Source: an uncultured Ruminococcus sp. (GTDB taxonomy: Bacteria > Bacillota > Clostridia > UBA1212). From it: a stretch of DNA of 35,724 bases. The notes under the pieces were generated by a model. The model did no database searches and had not been told where the DNA came from. It saw nothing but the letters and a program-made list of their open reading frames with translations. Shown in pieces: positions 2,956 to 35,724 of the stretch; position 1 is the first letter of the stretch; every line of letters begins with the position of its first letter. Position numbers and translations under genes: made by a program. The stretch covers positions 1-35,724 of the forward strand of contig CACZNV010000131.1 of assembly GCA_902782645.1 (NCBI GenBank), in the 5' to 3' direction.

Positions 2956-3729
2956 TTATTCCGGCTGCGTCTCGTAACTTTCCTTCCAATTTTCGGGCCA
3001 GCCGAGCACATTCTGAGCGTAGAAGTCATTAAAATCGTCGTAAAATGATATCACGTAGTCACGATAGGACTGATAATAGGTTCCCTCAGGTTCCTTTTCA
3101 CCGTTCTCCGCAGGAATCAGGAACGGGCATGACTCTTTTTCCGCGTCGGTAATAACCGTAATCCTTGCCCGAGTCATGTTCACGGGGCAGAGTTCGCAGC
3201 CGCATACTACAATGACGATCCTGTCGTCAAAATAGTAATAAGCTATTCTCCTGACATCAAGCCTATTTTGGGCCATATTGCCGGGAAAATAATCTGCATA
3301 CACCCGTCTCCATCTCAACATATGAACCAGACACTCCGACTGAAAATAGCTTATCTCCGAAATATCGGGGGCTGTAAGGAGCTCGCGAGATTGCTCCTCT
3401 GTGAGTATAAGCATGGCATTTAAACCGCCAACCATATTTGCGGTATATCCAAAGTAATAATCATGCCCCATATAATTGATGATCCTATCGGAGCCCGCTT
3501 TTCCGATACTTTCCGGAAGTTCGGATAAAGGAATAATAACGTCATCCCTGCTTAAAAATTCAACTGCAGAAGTGATATGCTCTTCCTCCCTTACCTGCTG
3601 ACTTTCTTTTTTCTCCGTTTTATTTGATGCATTTTGAGCAGCTGCATTTTTCACCGTGAAGAACACCGCGGTGCCTATCAGGGCAGCGGCGACAAAAACC
3701 GCCAAAACAATTATGGCTCGTTTTTTCAT
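2956..3729 (-). CDS. Membrane-anchored hypothetical protein, copy 2 of a tandem pair
   Basis: The 257-residue product has a short positive N-terminus (MKKRAII), one membrane segment at about residues 5-27, a charged linker rich in Lys/Glu/Gln (about 30-52) and an extracytoplasmic domain of about 200 residues. The domain family is not recognised. It carries EEQSRELLTAPDISEISYFQ, and its only cysteines are in the extracytoplasmic part. AGGAGG precedes the ATG. It is a paralogue of the gene at 3767-4483 and lies 37 nt behind it. Both are probably cotranscribed with the ricin-like protein upstream and end at the terminator at 2921-2949. Function unknown. Confidence 0.85.
   Translation of the reverse strand: MKKRAIIVLAVFVAAALIGTAVFFTVKNAAAQNASNKTEKKESQQVREEEHITSAVEFLSRDDVIIPLSELPESIGKAGSDRIINYMGHDYYFGYTANMVGGLNAMLILTEEQSRELLTAPDISEISYFQSECLVHMLRWRRVYADYFPGNMAQNRLDVRRIAYYYFDDRIVIVVCGCELCPVNMTRARITVITDAEKESCPFLIPAENGEKEPEGTYYQSYRDYVISFYDDFNDFYAQNVLGWPENWKESYETQPE
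3561..3729. repeat. Near-identical 5' end shared with 4315-4483
   Basis: This 169-bp segment aligns without gaps to 4315-4483 at an offset of 754 bp. Only about three differences occur in the first 120 bp or so; more accumulate towards the start codons. It encodes the anchor and linker of the duplicated membrane proteins. Confidence 0.85.
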
Positions 3730-3766
3730 TGTAGACCTCCTTTGAACGTGCGGACATTCTCCCCGG

Positions 3767-4483
3767 TTACGGATTGTCTGTTTGATAACTCCCGCGTCGG
3801 TTTTCCAGGTTCACGATATATTCAAAGTATGAGTCGTAATACGTCCCCTGTTCGGCTTTTTCCGCCCCCTCTTCGGGAATAAGAAAATCCGGATTGCTGC
3901 CGTTGGCAATGACCTCAATTCTCGCACCGTCTCCGTTCAGTGGTCCGAGTCCGAACAGGTCGTTAGCTACAACAACGGTTCTGTCATCGAAGAAATAGTA
4001 AAATATCCTCCTGATTTCATATATGTTCCTATAGATGTCTCCGGGGTGATAATCAGTGTAAACTCGCCTCCATTTTACCATATAGGGGAGACATTCCGAC
4101 TGAAAATAGCTAATCTCCGCTATGTCAGGAGCCGTCAGCAGTTCCCTGGATTGGTCCTCCGTAAGTATAAGCATTGCGCCGGTGGAAAAATTCGGGACAG
4201 TTCCGAAGTAGTATTTCTGACCTTTGTATGTAACAATCTTATCGGTGCCCTGCTTTCTGATACTATCGGGAATTTCGGAAAGCGGGATGAACACATCCGG
4301 TCTGCCAAAGAACTCAACTGCGGAAGTGATATGCTCTTCCTCCCTTACCTGCTGACTTTCTTTTTTCTCCGTTTTATTTGATGCGTTTTGAGCTGCTGCA
4401 TTTTTCACCGTGAAGAACACCGCGGTGCCTATCAGGGCGGCAGCGACAAAAATCGCCAATGTAATAATAATGCGTTTTTTCAT
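3767..4483 (-). CDS. Membrane-anchored hypothetical protein, copy 1 of a tandem pair
   Basis: The 238-residue product has the same architecture as its downstream neighbour: MKKR start, one N-terminal membrane segment, charged linker, extracytoplasmic domain. Residues 10-57 are almost identical between the two (shared FVAAALIGTAVFFTVKNAAA and the QQVREEEHITSAVEF stretch). The remainder is homologous but clearly diverged, with conserved blocks such as LLTAPDI.EISYFQSECL and RRVY.DY.PG. AGGAGG precedes the ATG. The family is not recognised. The N-terminal identity set against a diverged C-terminus suggests recent gene conversion or selection on the anchor. Confidence 0.85.
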   Translation of the reverse strand: MKKRIIITLAIFVAAALIGTAVFFTVKNAAAQNASNKTEKKESQQVREEEHITSAVEFFGRPDVFIPLSEIPDSIRKQGTDKIVTYKGQKYYFGTVPNFSTGAMLILTEDQSRELLTAPDIAEISYFQSECLPYMVKWRRVYTDYHPGDIYRNIYEIRRIFYYFFDDRTVVVANDLFGLGPLNGDGARIEVIANGSNPDFLIPEEGAEKAEQGTYYDSYFEYIVNLENRRGSYQTDNP

Positions 4484-7064: not shown

Positions 7065-7114
7065 TTTTTTCCCCCCCAATTCTTTTCCACACCATTCCAA
7101 GCCTAAGTAACTTA

Positions 7115-7519
7115 CTAATCAAAAATAATTCTCCACCTACAGCGCTCTGCACAAACAGAATTAATAATAGTTTGTCCTATCTCGTCGGAGATCAAACAGC
7201 TATCATGTTCAAAATAGATGAGTTCATCTTTAAAATACATATTTACAGATTCGATTTCACATGTATATAAAGGGTCAGTCGGAACATAATAAAGCGATTT
7301 CAATCCACTGAATTCCATTTCAAAATTGGTAAAATCTTCAAATTGCCTCTGAAAAACCATACATAGCGTTCTCTTATCATTTATTGGATGCATCGCTAAG
7401 CGTGAATCTACGTAAGCTCCAGAAACAAAAGAGAAGCTTTGTAGACAGCTGTCGTGAAAATATGCAACTCTTTCTAGAAAAACCTTCAAGGATTCTTCGT
7501 TGTTCAATGTATTCCACAT
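7115..7519 (-). CDS. Small hypothetical protein, probable immunity-type
   Basis: The product is 134 residues, mixed alpha/beta, with no signal peptide or membrane segment. Notable segments are VAYFHDSCLQSFSFVSGAYV, HPINDKRTLCMVFQRQF and EFSGLKSLYYVP. I know this pattern from small Firmicute proteins found near Rhs or polymorphic toxins, but I cannot name the family with certainty. AGGAGG stands ahead of the ATG with a spacer of about 9 nt. It precedes the gene at 6426 with a gap of about 50 nt and follows the DUF5071-like pseudogene. An immunity role is inferred from neighbourhood only. Confidence 0.7.
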   Translation of the reverse strand: MWNTLNNEESLKVFLERVAYFHDSCLQSFSFVSGAYVDSRLAMHPINDKRTLCMVFQRQFEDFTNFEMEFSGLKSLYYVPTDPLYTCEIESVNMYFKDELIYFEHDSCLISDEIGQTIINSVCAERCRWRIIFD

Positions 7520-7566
7520 GTTAATTTACCTCCTTAACGGTCAACCATAAGATAACCTTAATCGAA

Positions 7567-7659
7567 TTAGTTAGCCTTAAACAGAAAAGCTTTGTTAATT
7601 CTATAATTTAGCTTATGACGAGCCCAACTGTATAGAAAGGCTTTACCATGGATTTTCAT
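7567..7659 (-). CDS. Possible 30-residue ORF in an otherwise empty gap
   Basis: A GAGGAG site precedes an ATG at 7659 that opens a short basic peptide (MKIHGKAFLYSWARHKLNYR...) ending at TAA 7567. The surrounding gap 7520-7723 holds no other gene. A second frame, 7656 to about 7727, reads KEEHAVLLQLHALCEEIIKE and then a stop. It could be the tail of a lost immunity gene. Support for either is weak. Confidence 0.25.
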   Translation of the reverse strand: MKIHGKAFLYSWARHKLNYRINKAFLFKAN

Positions 7660-7723
7660 TCTTTAATAATCTCCTCACAAAGGGCATGCAGTTGTAATAA
7701 GACCGCATGTTCTTCTTTTCCTC

Positions 7724-8589
7724 TCACCCTTTATCAATCAGGCGGTTCTCTTCAGCTAAATAAACTGTCAAAAGTTGCTTAAGGGAAAAGCCCCAGATAG
7801 AGTCATTCTGTTTTTCAGCCTCTTCTAACGATTCATTTATCGCCTTTTTCAAAAGTTCTCTGTCTTTGAAACTCAGCAGCCTTTTATAAATCTGAACAGA
7901 CCCGGGCCAGTTCATATCCTGTAGCCACTCCAGTAACTTCGGGATATACGGAATCAGTTCTTCATCTGTTTTTGAGGAAAGAACAAGGCTGCAATTATCC
8001 CAGACATTTTTATTGACTGTCTCACCCCAAGCAGGCTGTATCAGAACGTTTAAATCCTCCATTTTTGACGCCAATAATCTTCCTTCAGACTGAACATCAC
8101 AGGGTTTATTCCAATCAAGCATTTCGTAGATTTTGCTTAATTCGTCCATTTGTTCGTCGCCTCCCTGTGAAAGGTATGCGGGCGTTTTATGACCGCATGC
8201 CTTTTTTCTCAGTTGAGTTATCTCAATAGATACTTCTTTTGACACGATGTGGAGTTCACCACCGAAAAACTCAAACATCATACAGAGAGAATCCTTGTCG
8301 TATTCGCAATTATTCTGAGGAAGATTGTTAAGGGCTGTGAAGTTCTCTTCCAAATACAGTCCCATTGCCGTATCCCGGTCTGTCGGCCATCTGCTGTTAG
8401 TTGCAAGTATAATATCAATATTCTTAAAGACAACCACTATTTCTTCGGCCGTAAACGGATTGTGCAGTTCGAGCTCCAACCTTTCTTCACGACGTTGTAA
8501 TTTACACTTTTAAGTTGGGCATCATGAACATTGCCCAAATGTAAAAGCTCTTTCAATTTGTCTTTGTTGTTATGGTTAAATAGTTGCAT
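7724..8589 (-). pseudogene. DUF5071-like immunity gene with a 5' frameshift
   Basis: The main frame (7724-8479, 251 codons from a TTG) gives LELELHNPFTAEEIVVVF... and a C-terminal DUF5071-like part (IYEMLDWNKPCDVQSEGRLL, LEWLQDMNWPGSVQIYKRLL). The credible start is ATG 8589, with GGAGGATACT in front, which reads MQLFNHNNKDKLKELLHLGN and on to AQLKSVNYN. The two frames meet cleanly near 8495-8500: adding one base at TACAACGTCG would read SVNY(K)RREERLELELHNPF. This is a one-base deletion or sequencing error rather than a true TTG start. DUF5071 proteins are found as immunity partners of polymorphic toxins. No cognate toxin is beside it, so this looks like an orphan immunity gene. The last codons (IDKG stop) are shared with fragments at 17.77 and 19.10 kb. 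Confidence 0.7.
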
Positions 8590-16423: not shown

Positions 16424-17617
16424 TTATTTTCTGTAACTCTCTGCAAGCTGTCTGAACTTTTCGAGAGACCTTTCGACCTTCTCTTTGGGCTGGCAGAAAG
16501 CAATTCTGAAGTGTCCGGGGCAGCCGAAGCCGTTGCCGGGTACGAGGACCAGCTCGAACTTTTTGGCTCTTTCGCAAAAAGCCACCGCGTCCGGCTCCAG
16601 AGACCTGGGGAATGCATAGAAGGTTCCGCCCGGTTCAACGCACGTATAGCCGGCGTCGATGAGCCCCTTGTAGAGAATGTCCTTGTTTTCCTGGTAAATT
16701 GAAAGATCGGAGGTCTGTCCCACCGATTTTCCGACAACCATCTGGTAGAGCGCAGGCACACCCACATAGGCAAGGTCTCTTGCGGCGCCGGCAAGCACTT
16801 TCAGCAATATATCCGCGTCCTCACACCTGTCCGTGAATGCAACGTAACCGATTCTCTCTCCCGGGATCGACATGGCCTTGCTGTAGGAATAGCAGACGAG
16901 GGTATTGGCGTATATTCCCGCAACATAGGGCACCTTGAAGCCCCTGAAAACAATTTCCCTGTAAGGTTCGTCGGAAATAATGTAAATGCTGCGTCCGAAC
17001 TCTTTCTGTTTTGCTTCAAGAAGCTTTCCCAGTTTTCTGATTGTCTCCTCGCTGTAGACAGCGCCGCTGGGGTTGTTTGGCGAGTTGATCAATATCGCTC
17101 TTGTATCCCGGTCTATCGCCTTCTCAAGAGCGTCAAAATTGATCTGGAACTGCTCAATGTCCGCCTCAATGACCTCAAGCTTTATTCCCGCGCTTTTCGC
17201 ATAAACCATGTACTCCGGGAAATAGGGAGCGAAGGTGATTATTTTGTCATTTGTCCCGAAGTCGCTGACAGCTCTGACACAGCAGGTCACAGCCGCCGCA
17301 GCTCCTATCGTCATGAATATGTTCTCCTCCGTGTAGCTCTCGCCAAACCGTTTGTTGAGGTCATCGGCAATGGCTTTCCTGACCCACGGTATGCCCTCCG
17401 CACTGGGATAGCCGTGCACGGCAACCGGATCTTCACCGCCAAGAATCTCCATAGCAACCTTAGTGACACACTCCGGCGGCTGCACACTCGGATTGCCGAT
17501 ACTGAAGTCAAACACATTGTCGGCGCCTATCTCAGCTGCACGCGCCTTGCTGTATTCAAATAGATCCCTTATTACAGATCTCGCGTTAACGTTTTTGCTG
17601 TATTTTTCGGATAGCAT
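16424..17617 (-). CDS. PLP-dependent aminotransferase, class I/II
   Basis: The ATG at 17617 is preferred because GGGAG lies just upstream; a TTG at 17632 is a false extension. The protein is about 397 residues, with DFSIGNPSVQPPE near the N-terminus, INSPNNPSGAVY, IISDEPYREI and the PLP-lysine block CYSYSKAMSIPGERIGY, then GHFRIAFC with the substrate-binding Arg. This is an aspartate/aromatic-type fold-type I aminotransferase; the substrate cannot be decided. It is led by the promoter at 17695-17723 and heads the operon with the lyxose isomerase. Confidence 0.92.
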   Translation of the reverse strand: MLSEKYSKNVNARSVIRDLFEYSKARAAEIGADNVFDFSIGNPSVQPPECVTKVAMEILGGEDPVAVHGYPSAEGIPWVRKAIADDLNKRFGESYTEENIFMTIGAAAAVTCCVRAVSDFGTNDKIITFAPYFPEYMVYAKSAGIKLEVIEADIEQFQINFDALEKAIDRDTRAILINSPNNPSGAVYSEETIRKLGKLLEAKQKEFGRSIYIISDEPYREIVFRGFKVPYVAGIYANTLVCYSYSKAMSIPGERIGYVAFTDRCEDADILLKVLAGAARDLAYVGVPALYQMVVGKSVGQTSDLSIYQENKDILYKGLIDAGYTCVEPGGTFYAFPRSLEPDAVAFCERAKKFELVLVPGNGFGCPGHFRIAFCQPKEKVERSLEKFRQLAESYRK

Positions 17618-17694
17618 TCTTTCATCTCCCAACGGCCGCCCCGCGGCTCTCTTTAAAGTTTCATAAAAAAAGGCAGAGTATCTGAACCCCGCCC

Positions 17695-17723: not shown

Positions 17724-17769
17724 GACACCAGAATCAATTGAACAGTGTCATGTTTTCGCAGGCTCCCGG

Positions 17770-17795
17770 TCACCCTTTATCAATTATGCTAAATG
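17770..17795. repeat. 26-bp direct repeat, partner at 19098-19123
   Basis: The two copies differ at one base (TTATCAATT versus TTATCGATT) and flank the gene at 17879-19078. A shorter version (15 bp) closes the gene at 7724. They encode the ...SIIDKG-stop tail on the minus strand and mark ends of duplicated cassettes. Confidence 0.8.
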
Positions 17796-17865
17796 TCCGG
17801 GATGAGTCAACCCCTAATACTGTTCCATGCCAGTCCAACTCGTAGATTTTGGTAATTCTGTCCAT
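17770..17865 (-). pseudogene. 31-codon deletion remnant, DUF5071-like ends joined
   Basis: The frame MDRITKIYELDWHGTV... SRTFSIIDKG stop shares its start with the internal MDELSKIYEMLDWNK of the DUF5071-like gene at 7724 and its last codons (IDKG stop) with the same gene. This looks like an immunity gene that lost its middle. It lacks a good ribosome site. The tail is repeated at 19098-19123. Confidence 0.45.
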
Positions 17866-17878
17866 TGTTTTTCCACGT

Positions 17879-19078
17879 TTATTCCGCCTTATAAAATTGG
17901 TTTCTGCAATACTCGTCAAAATGGTCCGAGCCGCTGCCAGTCAGTATCTTAGCCTTGGTTTTCCCGTTGTAATCCAAAACGGCAATGTCTTTTGAGTATG
18001 AGCATGCAATTATTCCGTCTTCGCCATATGCAATCAGCGAACTGTACATGGTGCCGGAGATTTTTTCCCTTTCGCCGGTCCGGATATTGATTTTCCAGAA
18101 TCCCTCTTCCGAATCGTTCTTGAACCTTCGAACATCCAGCTTGTTATACACTTTATACCGCCTGACTGAAAGATACATGTACTCCCCGTAAAAACAGACG
18201 GAATTCATAATCTTTTCTCCCTGCAGAACATGAAACAATTCCTTCACAGTGCCGTCCTTGGCGATTGACCAGAATCCTGACGTGCCCGTTCTTTGAACTA
18301 TAAGGAATTCTCCGTTCGCCGTTTCAAAAACCCGTCCCGGGCAGAACGCGCCAATCCTGTTTTCCGTCTCAGAGTCTGACTGATACATAAAAACGTCATC
18401 TTGGCGGTACTCATAATCGCCAAAGGAAAACGAATCGCCCGCATATGGATCCGGAGCTTCTAACTTGTCATGGAAGGCAATATCGCTGCCCGAAATCGTA
18501 AAATACGGTCCAAGGCTTTCCGTATATGTTCGCGTCTGAAAGACTACAGAACAGTTCGCAGCATCTTCTTTTACCGGAGAATAGTACTCCGTTTCGTAAA
18601 CCAAATCAGATACTCTCTCGCCCTTGAGAATGTCCTTTTGAATCCCGGTTTCTAGATCAAACGACCTGATTGCATCATTTTCCCGGGAGTCAAATAATGA
18701 ATAGTAAATGAGGTGGCCGTCGATAAAACAGAGAGGACGCTCTACGCAAGATTCTGCGCCGCGCTTTTCACTTTGTGAGAGGCTCAATATTCTGACAGCC
18801 CGGTCCCCTTTTACCTTGTAAAGTCCTTCATCCAAACCATCCTGCTTGTTTTTGGTCGCATAGAAGTACAATGTTCCGCCGTACGGATAAAGCGTATAAG
18901 GCTCCGCACTCCATCTGTCAATCTGAACCGCACCGCCAATATCACTTTCCGCAGCAGAGAACTTATACTCTCTGACAATTCGCAGCTTTTTGATTAATAT
19001 GATTGCCGTCACAGCAGCTATTGCCAAAACAACGACCGCTATAACCGCAATAATCACTTTCTTAGAAATCTTTTTCAT
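17879..19078 (-). CDS. Membrane-anchored beta-propeller-like protein
   Basis: The 399-residue protein has an N-terminal membrane anchor (KKVIIAVIAVVVLAIAAVTA). Repeating strands follow, such as LYPYGGTLYFYATKN, RPLCFIDGHLIYYSLF, SVCFYGEYMYLSVRRY and SSLIAYGEDGIIACSY. They recur about every 45-50 residues, as in the DUF5050-type or six-bladed propeller proteins common in Clostridia. AGAGGACTC precedes the ATG. It sits between two copies of the 26-bp repeat, inside a zone of Rhs and immunity debris. A membrane-bound immunity role is possible; function unproven. Confidence 0.75.
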   Translation of the reverse strand: MKKISKKVIIAVIAVVVLAIAAVTAIILIKKLRIVREYKFSAAESDIGGAVQIDRWSAEPYTLYPYGGTLYFYATKNKQDGLDEGLYKVKGDRAVRILSLSQSEKRGAESCVERPLCFIDGHLIYYSLFDSRENDAIRSFDLETGIQKDILKGERVSDLVYETEYYSPVKEDAANCSVVFQTRTYTESLGPYFTISGSDIAFHDKLEAPDPYAGDSFSFGDYEYRQDDVFMYQSDSETENRIGAFCPGRVFETANGEFLIVQRTGTSGFWSIAKDGTVKELFHVLQGEKIMNSVCFYGEYMYLSVRRYKVYNKLDVRRFKNDSEEGFWKINIRTGEREKISGTMYSSLIAYGEDGIIACSYSKDIAVLDYNGKTKAKILTGSGSDHFDEYCRNQFYKAE

Positions 19079-19097
19079 TATGAGTCCTCTTTTTTGT

Positions 19098-19262
19098 TCA
19101 CCCTTTATCGATTATGCTAAATGATCTTGATGTCCATACCAGTCCATTCTGCCAGGTGAATGTATACCTTTGGCCGTTGAAGTATGACAGAGTGTTCTCG
19201 TTGACGTCGTATATGATAGCCTCTGTGTTTGAAATGGGTATTCTATTCTTGGGCTGGTGCTT
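19098..19262 (-). pseudogene. Rhs/YD-repeat fragment
   Basis: The frame reads EAIIYDVNENTLSYFNGQRY, then TFTWQNGLVW..., and ends ...FSIIDKG stop. The pattern YD..N.....NG...FTWQNG is the YD repeat of Rhs proteins. There is no start codon or ribosome site, so this is a broken piece. Its tail is the 26-bp repeat, so a recombination fused Rhs sequence to an immunity-gene end. Confidence 0.65.
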
Positions 19263-19683
19263 AGCTTTTATCCAAGGGTTCTAGGCAGTAGCCTAAAGGT
19301 CTCGCAGGATCAAAGTCAAACAAGTATCTCTGTGCTCTATACGGAACAAGCAAATAAAGTCCAAGCTTTTCACACCTTAGAAGAATAAATGGTAAATCAT
19401 TATTTGCACGACCATACTCGACGCACCACCGGCCTTCAGAATCTGTTATAATATGTACTTCTTCACTTACGACTATTGAAGTCTCGAGATCCTCCCTTGC
19501 AATAGCATGAATATCAACAGCATGATACAATCTTTCATCAATCACAAACACACTATTCGATTGAGTATTCCAATCAAAGTACTGTCCGGTTATCAACTCA
19601 ATTGCGCTTGTTTCTTTATTGCGGCATGCAGGCACGACAATAATCAGTGCAATCAATACGACAATAATCAATTTCTTTTTCAT
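19261..19683 (-). CDS. Small lipoprotein, probable immunity protein
   Basis: The 140-residue product has a lipoprotein signal: MKKKLIIVVLIALIIVVPAC, the Cys being the lipidated residue. The mature part of about 120 residues has no recognised family. AGGAGGATAATACCCT leads the ATG, which lies 16 nt behind the stop of the broken Rhs gene. That is the position of an immunity gene. Lipoprotein immunity proteins exist for toxins acting outside the membrane; that is analogy only. Confidence 0.75.
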   Translation of the reverse strand: MKKKLIIVVLIALIIVVPACRNKETSAIELITGQYFDWNTQSNSVFVIDERLYHAVDIHAIAREDLETSIVVSEEVHIITDSEGRWCVEYGRANNDLPFILLRCEKLGLYLLVPYRAQRYLFDFDPARPLGYCLEPLDKS

Positions 19684-19699
19684 AGGGTATTATCCTCCT

Positions 19700-20369
19700 T
19701 CAACGATACGGATTGCCAGCACACCATGTGGATGGGTCTGTAATTTTTATTATCTGATTCGAGCCGTCACATCGTTCATACGGGACAACATACATTTCAT
19801 CATAGCCAAAAAGATTCATGGCAATTCGATCTCCGCCGTATATGTTGTTGTATATTCAGATTGGCAATGTGCGTCTGAGATGTTATCGCATTTCCGCTTC
19901 CGTCTTTTACAGATGCAAGCTTTCCCCAGCCGTCATAAATGTATGTTGCGACAAGCGTATTTGCGGTATTTCTCAACTCAAGTATATCACCTTCGGCATT
20001 CTTTACAAAGTTATTTTTTGCATATGATGTGCCATTGAAGTATCTCAGAGCATAAGGGCTGCCCGATGCGTCGTAGAAGTACTCTATATACTCATTGCCC
20101 CATTTGTCGCAAAGAAGCATTGAGCCGTCGTTAAAACGGAGGGTTTTAGAATTAGAAGAGCGCGAATCAGAAACCTCGAAAAGTGCGTCCGGGACGGATT
20201 CCGCTTCAGTTTCAATATATGACAAATCAGGAACCGCTTCGTTTCCCACCGTAGGTACATAATCTTCAAAGGCAATTACGTTAAACCTAACCGAAATTAA
20301 TGCAGCTGCAATTGCAAAAACAAGGATAAAAGCAACTGCTTTAAATCCAATACGGCTTCTGAGTTTCAT
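19700..20369 (-). pseudogene. Truncated Rhs/YD-repeat protein, out-of-frame C-terminus
   Basis: The ATG at 20369 follows GGAGGG. The product has an N-terminal membrane anchor (VAFILVFAIAAALISV) and YD repeats (YFYDASGSPYALRYFNG, TYIYDGWGKLASVKDGSGN). After SQTHIANLN the frame runs into IQQHIRRRSNCHESFWL and stops at 19800. Another frame over the same DNA (about 19855-19700) reads IYGGDRIAMNLFGYDEMYVV and ends ...WCAGNPYR stop. In intact Rhs proteins the ANLN position is followed by NPYRYRGYYYD. Here the core end is deleted and a toxin-like tail joined out of frame. Probably inactive. Confidence 0.7.
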
Positions 20370-20611: not shown

Positions 20612-21241
20612 ATGCACTACACCAAAAAGGACGATTTTCGTATTGCTAAAAGCAAAGAAAAAATCATAAATGCATACCTGTCGCTGCTCTCAGAAAAAGC
20701 ACGATTCAAGATAACAGTTAAAGATATTTACACAAGAGCAGATGTAGACAAATCTACCTTATACAGGCATTTTAGAAGCATTAATGAAATTGAATCGGGA
20801 ATTGAGGAATCTGTTCTTAAAAAGCTGAACCACCTTATTGACAATTCCGATTTGAACGACTTTTTAATGGGCCGCAAATCTTTTTTGCGCGCTCTGAGCG
20901 AAATGATTAATAACGACATGCTCTTCTTCTCAAAAGTCCTGTTTGTGAATCAACGCATAGAATTTGTTGAAAAAATAGATACGCGGATTTCAAATAAACT
21001 AAAAGATGCCCTGAGAGCGCATACGGGGCTCCCGGAAAAACACATGGATATTGTATTCACATTCGCTGTTGCAGGGAGAGTCGCAGTGTACAGAAAATGG
21101 ATTATGGGAGGCTGCAAGGAAGATATAATCACTATCTCCGAGGTTCTTGAAAAAATATCTTCCTCAGGTTTTGACTCTTTTTTGTCGAATAAAAACAAAG
21201 AGGCTCAACAGTCCTTTAATCAATTGCCGAGTTTGGGATAG
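20612..21241 (+). CDS. TetR/AcrR-family transcriptional regulator
   Basis: The ATG at 20612 is chosen because GGAGGGAGGATACGC lies just before it; an upstream in-frame start at 20483 has no ribosome site. The product has about 209 residues. The N-terminal helix-turn-helix reads FKITVKDIYTRADVDKSTLY, then RHFRSI, the classic TetR recognition helix. The C-terminal two thirds are helical (ligand/dimer domain; KDALRAHTGLPEKHMDIVF). Ligand unknown. It is one of only two plus-strand genes. Its target could be its own promoter, the phosphatase downstream or the divergent Rhs remnant. Confidence 0.88.
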   Translation: MHYTKKDDFRIAKSKEKIINAYLSLLSEKARFKITVKDIYTRADVDKSTLYRHFRSINEIESGIEESVLKKLNHLIDNSDLNDFLMGRKSFLRALSEMINNDMLFFSKVLFVNQRIEFVEKIDTRISNKLKDALRAHTGLPEKHMDIVFTFAVAGRVAVYRKWIMGGCKEDIITISEVLEKISSSGFDSFLSNKNKEAQQSFNQLPSLG

Positions 21242-21297: not shown

Positions 21298-22017
21298 ATG
21301 CTTCTATACGTAATTCGTCACGGTGACCCCGACTATCCGAACAACACTTTGACGCCCCAGGGCTTTAAGCAGGCTGATGCGCTTGCAAAAAGGCTTTCCG
21401 TTTTCGGGCTTGACGAGATATATACTTCGAGCCTGCCTCGCGCCTATCTCACAGCACAGCCTACAGCGGAGGCCCTCGGGATCGAACCCGTGATGTGCGA
21501 CTGGGCAATGGAGGACGTTGCTTGGCGATATTTTACGGTTCCATACGATGAGGTCAATGTCACCTGGGCTTTTTTCACCGCCAAGTACAACAGGCTTTTT
21601 AACAGGCCTGAGGTTTTGGCCCTTGGGCGGGACTGGGCAAGTTCGCCGCTGTTTGAGGACCGCAAATTCAAGGAAGGCGTTGAAGCGGTGCAGAAAAGCG
21701 TTGACGATTTCCTTTTGAGTCTGGGGTACAAACACGACCCCGCCAATGGCATTTACACGCCTGTCAGCCACAACGACAAGCGGATCGCCCTCTTCTGCCA
21801 CCAGGGCTTCGGGATCGCTTTTCTGAGCATGCTGCTGGACATTCCTTATCCGCTCTATGCGAGCCATTTTGACATAGGCCACAGCGGCATGACCGTTGTG
21901 GAGTTTTCGCTGAACAGCGAAGGCCTTGTTATCCCCAAAACGCTCCAGCACTCAAACGACAGCCACCTCTATAAAGAGGGGCTGCCCACAAAATACCAAA
22001 ATTGCATAAACATCTGA
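21298..22017 (+). CDS. Histidine phosphatase family protein
   Basis: The 239-residue protein opens MLLYVIRHGDPDYPNNTLTP; RHG is the phosphohistidine motif. The second catalytic region is FCHQGFG with the second His, and the typical TSSLPRAYLTAQPTA is at about residues 42-56. The superfamily covers phosphoglycerate mutases and broad phosphatases; the exact substrate is unknown. An AGGAGAACTGT ribosome site precedes the ATG. It is a single-gene unit closed by the terminator at 22036-22074. Confidence 0.88.
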   Translation: MLLYVIRHGDPDYPNNTLTPQGFKQADALAKRLSVFGLDEIYTSSLPRAYLTAQPTAEALGIEPVMCDWAMEDVAWRYFTVPYDEVNVTWAFFTAKYNRLFNRPEVLALGRDWASSPLFEDRKFKEGVEAVQKSVDDFLLSLGYKHDPANGIYTPVSHNDKRIALFCHQGFGIAFLSMLLDIPYPLYASHFDIGHSGMTVVEFSLNSEGLVIPKTLQHSNDSHLYKEGLPTKYQNCINI

Positions 22018-34978: not shown

Positions 34979-35724
34979 TCAATTCCAAGGAATTAATTCC
35001 TCGACAATAGCCAAGGGATTATTCTTTTGCATTATTTTCATCTTAAGCTTCAAAACAGCCAAACCAACTCCTGAAGCTTGAGATTTACTTGCAAATTCCC
35101 AAATATGGTATATGCCGTCTTTGCCAAGAGCAATAACATCAGGCCTTTGGCTACCGACCAACCCTGCTGTTTTCAAAGCTCTGTTGCCGTATATTTCTGT
35201 GTAATTATCAGATTTCTCCAATGCCTCTATGAAACGATCTATGCGTTCCTTATGAATATCGCGGCCGTGTCCACCGCCAAGCCTCTTGCATTCATTATGT
35301 ACCAGCACTCCCTCATCGCCGACATAGTACGTGTGGTACCCTTCGACCTCAAAGTTGTAAACCTTTACAGGACTCTCGAGTATCTCGTGCTGGATCTTCT
35401 CGACGACTACATATTCCCCGTTTACCGTTACAAGAATGTCTCCCGCCCGCAGCTTGCAGGCTGCTGTCCATCCTTTAACCGGAGAGTAAAACGGGTGCTC
35501 GTTTGTACAGACCGTTTCCTTTCCCTTAATCGTTACGTGTATAAGTTCATCGGCTTCCTTGACAAATGTCCGGACTACTTTCCTTAGTCCCACATTCCCG
35601 CTTGTCTCATTATAATCTCTTGAAAAGGCATTGGCAAGTTCAGTCCTCTGATAGCTGACATCAGAGCGCCTGTACGGATTGATGTTTTCAACGGTCGCAG
35701 GTTTTCCGAGTTTTTCCAGCGCAA
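34979..35724 (-). CDS. Rhs/Hint-type toxin C-terminal part (5' end outside window)
   Basis: The frame is open from the right window edge to a stop at 34979. It starts ...KLGKPATVENINPYR (the end of an Rhs core), then RSDVSYQRTELANAFSRDYN, then a pretoxin Hint C-half: VRTFVKEADELIHVTIKGKE, CTNEHPFYSPVKGW and YNFEVEGYHTYYVGDEGVLV, then HNEC. The C-terminal toxin domain has SQRPDVIALGKDGIYHIWEF followed by ASKSQASG. That is an R-P-D-V ... E-F-x-S/K array compatible with PD-(D/E)XK nucleases. The Hint N-half with its catalytic Cys (CFxAGT) is missing, so autoprocessing is doubtful. The stop is 24 nt before the propeller immunity gene. Confidence 0.78.
   Translation of the reverse strand, partial: ALEKLGKPATVENINPYRRSDVSYQRTELANAFSRDYNETSGNVGLRKVVRTFVKEADELIHVTIKGKETVCTNEHPFYSPVKGWTAACKLRAGDILVTVNGEYVVVEKIQHEILESPVKVYNFEVEGYHTYYVGDEGVLVHNECKRLGGGHGRDIHKERIDRFIEALEKSDNYTEIYGNRALKTAGLVGSQRPDVIALGKDGIYHIWEFASKSQASGVGLAVLKLKMKIMQKNNPLAIVEELIPWN

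Follow-up and report, generated by a model that had tools for sequence, protein, structure and literature searches.

A shared gene end and mobile-element terminal repeats at the junctions of a probable immunity-gene hotspot in an uncultured Ruminococcus

Introduction

Why should one short sequence close gene fragments that otherwise have little in common? This question arises in a 35,724-nt stretch of DNA (hereafter the window) from an uncultured Ruminococcus sp., in which pieces of an Rhs toxin gene and of putative immunity genes lie among open reading frames. A sequence-only reading of positions 17770-20369 proposed that the repeated tail is a recombination point used to swap immunity cassettes. 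Rhs loci offer a precedent for such debris, as tip displacement that leaves strings of fragments is known in Enterobacteriaceae, where exchange of C-termini by homologous recombination has been proposed (Jackson et al. 2009, PMC2935791). We therefore traced the tail, the sequences that adjoin it and the same locus in congeners, referring to the window genome as G000 and to the congeners as G001 to G005.

Results

The tail, CATTTAGCATAATYGATAAAGGGTGA, lies on the minus strand and ends two short fragments, at 17770 and 19098. The two 26-nt copies (17770-17795 and 19098-19123) have 25 of 26 bp in common, with a single mismatch, and a 17-nt form at 7724-7740 closes the gene at 7724, as the sequence-only reading had noticed. 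These are the three matches in the window, compared to none in 100 shuffles. Searching the genome, a check which that reading had proposed, raised the number to five by adding one match each on contigs C140 and C141, so the tail is not confined to the locus. In both additional matches the tail encodes the C-terminus of an intact protein (357 and 339 aa), which ends VIGVDSSRTFSIIDKG or ...INKG, and congener G001 carries two further intact genes with the tail, at C48 and C9. Because it closes intact genes in all four places, the tail is the native C-terminal end of a lipoprotein-like family of about 339-357 aa, which we call the tail-donor family, and not a free-standing sequence. A 24-nt form with up to 3 mismatches occurs in 2 of 9 genomes of the bacterial family. 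One more match, in G002 (L010), was read as chance, being the GC-rich end of an unrelated gene with 1 mismatch.

The tail-donor alleles are mosaic. Their middles share roughly 50-60% nucleotide identity and their ends are near-identical, reaching 120/120 nt between the C48 and C9 genes of G001, where the donor gene contains masked stretches. Of the 16-17 fourfold sites within the final 45 codons, 12-15 are identical, compared to about 60% in mid-gene for divergent pairs; this contrast is modest, and the ends are not always clearly above the middle.

We then asked what each tail remnant is joined to. The first (17770-17814, minus strand) is what remains of a tail-donor lipoprotein gene, its final 45 nt (GVDSSRTFSIIDKG-stop). 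Positions 17766-17816 match G000:C141 and G001:C48 over 51 bp at 96-98% identity, and the remnant matches G000:C140 over 48 bp at 96%. Abutting it on the same strand is a 24-nt terminal inverted repeat of an IS3-like element or miniature element (MITE) at 17814-17837, with an alignment score of 41 (maximum 21 in 500 shuffles) and a score of 35.2 against a profile built from 37 copies (shuffle maxima of at most 6.0). The repeat in turn cuts the head of a DUF5071 gene (MDRITKIYE; 17840-17865, minus strand), which aligns with the 7724 gene where its DUF5071 part begins (score 38, against at most 28 in 500 shuffles) and bears out the earlier identification of a DUF5071 remnant. The second tail remnant (19098-19132, minus strand), in which about 35 nt resemble the end of the donor, matches G000:C140 over 35 bp at 91%. 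It is followed at 19133-19146, again on the minus strand, by the outer 14-nt piece of the same repeat (score 28, maximum 21 in 500 shuffles). A piece of the repeat TGGACTGGTAYGGAAAAGTATTAG is thus found upstream of each tail remnant, between fragment and tail: the tails that were said to close two fragments are present, but they are not joined to those fragments directly.

The two joins also differ from each other. At 17814-17816 there is micro-homology only, a short likeness seen by eye between TATTAGTGG in the repeat and TTATAGGGG in the donor. The other join falls at 19123-19132, and the tail lengths retained are unequal. Because the two remnants keep different lengths, no fixed crossover point of the kind that marks a site-specific recombination cassette is reused across the two tail junctions. 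No recombinase gene was found in cis, with PF00589 matches confined to other contigs (G000 C29, C180 and C119). The tail at 17770 is closer to the C141 and C48 donors, a likeness that extends 4 nt beyond the stop, than to the donor that occupies this locus in G001; it is therefore not certain to be an in-place remnant of that donor. Beyond those 4 nt, the 17770 copy has no further donor similarity (371 of 500 shuffles scored as well).

Two intact genes lie amid this debris, as had been claimed, with both reading frames open. One (17879-19078, minus strand) encodes a membrane-anchored, beta-rich protein of 399 aa that is a distant relative of the tail donors, sharing 32% identity with the C140 protein over 109 residues (E 4.2e-12). 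A beta-propeller fold would be a guess and is not claimed, as the single-sequence model was of low confidence (pLDDT 46). The other (19261-19683, minus strand) is a lipoprotein-like ORF of 140 aa that had no Pfam match and is, judging from its position, a probable immunity gene. Between the second repeat piece and this ORF, at 19147-19265 on the minus strand, is a fragment that ends at the terminal repeat and translates like an Rhs YD repeat. The description of a lone YD fragment fits that translation, but the best match to a full Rhs is weak (E 0.49).

The Rhs remnant itself (19800-20369, minus strand) consists of an N-terminal signal region joined to a core end. It matches residues of about 1801-1885 of a 2148-aa congener Rhs (E 1e-12), and its N-terminus is similar to the G002 Rhs (E 0.002). 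A tip remnant lies out of frame at about 19700-19855 on the minus strand. The truncated gene and its out-of-frame tip are therefore both real, but truncation is not the whole of it, since about 1,700 residues from the middle of the protein are absent. The core fragments attached to tips amount to one core end with an out-of-frame tip and one weakly matching YD piece, and no intact full-length Rhs lies upstream of the debris at this locus, which holds the 19800-20369 remnant only.

Other Rhs-related pieces were encountered along the way. A second Rhs end occupies 34979-35724 of the window, where N-terminal Rhs residues (104-146, 70% identity) are followed directly by a HINT pretoxin domain and what may be a NERD-like nuclease; its core is missing, or the assembly dropped it where the contig ends. 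On C140, locus L013 (6007-6523) contains an orphan tip-like ORF of 164 aa. Over 32 bp this ORF is 91% identical to the region where the window Rhs starts, and directly downstream of it come a 306-aa gene and the tail-donor gene. Locus L056 (G000:C159) contains an Rhs end with a HINT-like stretch, recognized by eye, followed by a 153-aa gene; 1 nt past the stop of that gene comes a copy of the terminal repeat. Elsewhere in the window, 2956-4483 encodes two tandem, closely similar membrane-anchored proteins (257 and 238 aa), neither of which matched a Pfam family.

To compare the locus between genomes, we used a flanking aminotransferase-like gene (16424-17632, minus strand) as an anchor; its best matches are 79-98% identical in 5/5 congeners, the G005 copy being cut at a contig end, so that the spot itself was compared in G001 to G004. 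The other flank is a gene that by eye is phosphatase/mutase-like (21298-22017, plus strand) and that adjoins the aminotransferase in G003. Contig C9 of G001 is colinear with the window and diverges from it at window positions 21189 and 17816, the latter inside the tail. Between these points G001 has 1,465 bp that include the end of an IS3-type ORF (PF13333, E 2.7e-10) and the right end of an element, which reads TACCAGTCCA; just downstream of that right end is an intact donor, at the same locus as the window tail remnant. In G003 the site is nearly empty, the two flanking genes standing about 240 bp apart, and in G002 it is occupied by two unrelated ORFs. In the stretch of G004 that was compared, the second flank did not turn up next to the first. 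Given the intact donor in G001, the divergence inside the tail and the nearly empty site in G003, alleles did change at this locus, with one boundary inside the tail. Congeners stand in here for the comparison between strains that had been proposed as a search for cassette replacement: G001 differs with a breakpoint in the tail and G003 lacks the whole segment; against such replacement, both remnant junctions sit at an element end. We read the interval bounded by the 17632 and 21298 genes as variable, with Rhs tips, immunity-type genes and tail-donor lipoproteins arriving there time and again.

Across the six genomes of the genus we counted 13 copies of the terminal repeat TGGACTGGTAYGGAAAAGTATTAG, spread over five of them, the window genome included. 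There were none in three family genomes of other genera, and a reversed control pattern gave none. An exact scan of a collection of genome contigs found it in 22 stretches, which belong to 16 MAG assemblies. By title these are Lachnospiraceae (8), Clostridia (5), Erysipelotrichaceae (1), Bacillota (1) and Mageeibacillus (1), and many of the record titles mention rumen or omasum. The repeat occurs in many rumen Bacillota. The base ahead of GGACTGG is T in 38/38 listed copies, and the upstream sequence is otherwise variable; this comparison used 18 of the 22 collection stretches, leaving out four that duplicate the congeners.

Several features place the repeat at the ends of IS3-type elements. 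Some copies stand at the start of an IS3-type OrfA (PF01527, HTH_Tnp_1, 6.2e-07 in L106), and an OrfB end has an rve-type domain (PF13333, rve_2, 2.7e-10 in L041). The two domains come from different element copies, and a complete IS was not read. As in the IS3 family, the ends are inverted and of the TG...CA type (TGGACT...AGTCCA). A 280-bp element in L107 (5109-5388) has two inward ends, no transposase and the 3' half of a tRNA-Leu inside, which makes it the one clear complete case of a MITE. It differs from described IS3 elements and MITEs in carrying this tRNA-Leu(CAG) half; further differences are the lack of target-site duplications (0/3 measured elements with both ends) and the partial state of the window footprints. 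Similar MITE-like elements, in which the tRNA-Leu(CAG) half runs from the anticodon loop on, lie in L048 (about 340-615) and L042 (508-633 and 3841-3977) as well as in L107, and a query combining element end and tRNA gave 2-10 matches in each of the 6 genus genomes and none in the 3 other family genomes.

Some copies of the repeat are close to gene ends. In the genus, 4 of 13 begin 1-5 nt past a stop codon, compared to 55 of 4000 random positions; outside it, 4 of 25 copies are near stops. With many copies beside a tRNA-Leu(CAG) 3' half, we initially favored a tRNA-Leu-targeted integrative cassette with the repeat as its cargo boundary. That reading was dropped: the same repeat ends IS3-type elements and the 280-bp MITE holding the tRNA half, integrases were on other contigs, and Rfam returned full tRNAs only. 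A degenerate terminal repeat ahead of the tail in the donor genes was likewise not supported (score 13; 250 of 500 shuffles as good).

The gene at 7724 (7724-8479, minus strand) shows a different kind of junction. It encodes a DUF5071 protein (PF16804, E 5.6e-12, above the curated cut-off) with an RLIDKG ending, and its N-terminal part is frameshifted relative to the 301-aa G001 ortholog through one base lost near 8490. DUF5071 is present in 3 of 31 genomes of the order, and the one other member, in G020, is without the extra RLIDKG stretch. The gene end and a downstream inverted-repeat stretch (7681-7740, minus strand) align with the G001:C48 donor gene end and its downstream sequence (score 41, against at most 26 in 500 shuffles). 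Taken by itself, the downstream part gives a weaker signal in the window (6/500 shuffles) and a clear one in the G001 ortholog (0/500). Because the tail and the terminator-like stretch after it are shared with a donor gene, this gene end was probably exchanged too. No clear terminal repeat adjoins the shared end. In G001, the DUF5071 gene is preceded by an Rhs piece that is 90% identical to window 19963-20050.

A third, degenerate repeat footprint lies nearby at 7071-7099 (minus strand), 15 nt past the stop of a 134-aa gene. Its profile score is 18.2, compared to maxima of at most 6.0 in 12 shuffles, and it sits at a second indel relative to G001. The 134-aa gene (window 7070-7650) is absent in G001; an imperfect direct repeat of roughly 14 bp and a degenerate IS end flank it.

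Discussion

The idea that the tail is a recombination point for swapping immunity cassettes survives in part: a breakpoint does fall in the tail, the donors are mosaic and the 7724 end is shared, but the tail is a native gene end and no single crossover is reused. With some confidence, although well short of certainty, we read the locus as an immunity-gene hotspot eroded by IS/MITE-associated deletion and by mosaic recombination in conserved donor 3' ends, and we judge it fairly probable that the tail is not a dedicated or recognized recombination site. Both junctions are located within or beside a terminal repeat of the IS/MITE family and the tail lengths are unequal, which argues for deletions anchored in mobile-element ends. 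On this view, immunity and Rhs genes would have taken insertions of the element, within them or alongside. Deletions that began inside an element end and reached a tail-donor gene, in some cases at micro-homology, would have produced the fragment-repeat-tail order that both junctions display. Separately, the conserved ends of the donor family may recombine homologously and swap their middles. The tail would look reused as the downstream survivor of such deletions. Against this reading stand the 19098 footprint, which is only 14 nt long, and the missing target-site duplications in all three elements. The closer likeness of the 17770 tail to the C141 and C48 donors, its end 4 nt past the stop, the 7724 end with no clear repeat beside it, the modest fourfold contrast and the masked stretches in the G001 donor also count against it.

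A purer version of the original idea makes the tail, with its downstream terminator, a short homology arm for immunity-cassette swaps, and pieces of the Rhs core the other arm. The G001 breakpoint, the 7724 gene's share in both tail and downstream stretch, the near-identical ends of donors with divergent middles and the Rhs piece ahead of the G001 DUF5071 gene all speak for it. We nonetheless consider it unlikely, as the retained tail lengths differ, an element end occupies both remnant junctions, the tail is found in so few genomes of the family, and 14-47 nt is short for RecA-type exchange. The portable downstream arm could instead be the element end itself, placed just after immunity genes and used for exchanging Rhs tips together with them. 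The excess of copies just past stop codons fits this proposal, as do two of the four near-stop copies (L042 and L056), which immediately follow a small gene after an Rhs end, and the third footprint, which follows the 134-aa gene where an indel lies. Yet copies outside the genus are near stops too, which may reflect an insertion preference, many copies have no Rhs nearby and no direct exchange was seen, and we regard this arm as decidedly improbable. That the shared ends are short coincidences or metagenome mis-joins hardly seems credible. The genome is a draft of 180 contigs, and several Rhs pieces end at contig ends, but the shuffles never produced the tail, the congener contig is colinear, and the repeat is near-exact, with its invariant T ahead.

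Returning to deletion at element ends within an immunity-gene hotspot, the locus resembles the arrays outlined by Jackson et al. (PMC2935791) in its dissociated tips and its core fragments of variable length beside small downstream genes. It differs in that its fragments are degraded and in that element ends, rather than identical core sequence, mark the two junctions; these element ends at the joins are what sets it apart from the Rhs displacement described there. Our literature searches found nothing on DUF5071 and nothing joining IS3, MITE and rumen, and a search on polymorphic toxins, IS3 and Firmicutes returned a sole match, which concerned a Pseudomonas T6SS. It is a rather remote prospect, if a broader one, that an IS3-derived repeat spread by MITEs with a tRNA-Leu half might be a common downstream boundary of Rhs toxin-immunity cassettes in rumen Clostridia, with exchange and deletion occurring at mobile-element ends and not in conserved coding sequence.

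As a caution, a repeated gene end need not mean a recombination site. The TGGACTGGTAYGGAAAAGTATTAG end provides a concrete marker for searching strain collections for immunity-gene turnover, and the locus shows the decay and turnover of polymorphic-toxin loci in uncultured rumen Bacillota.
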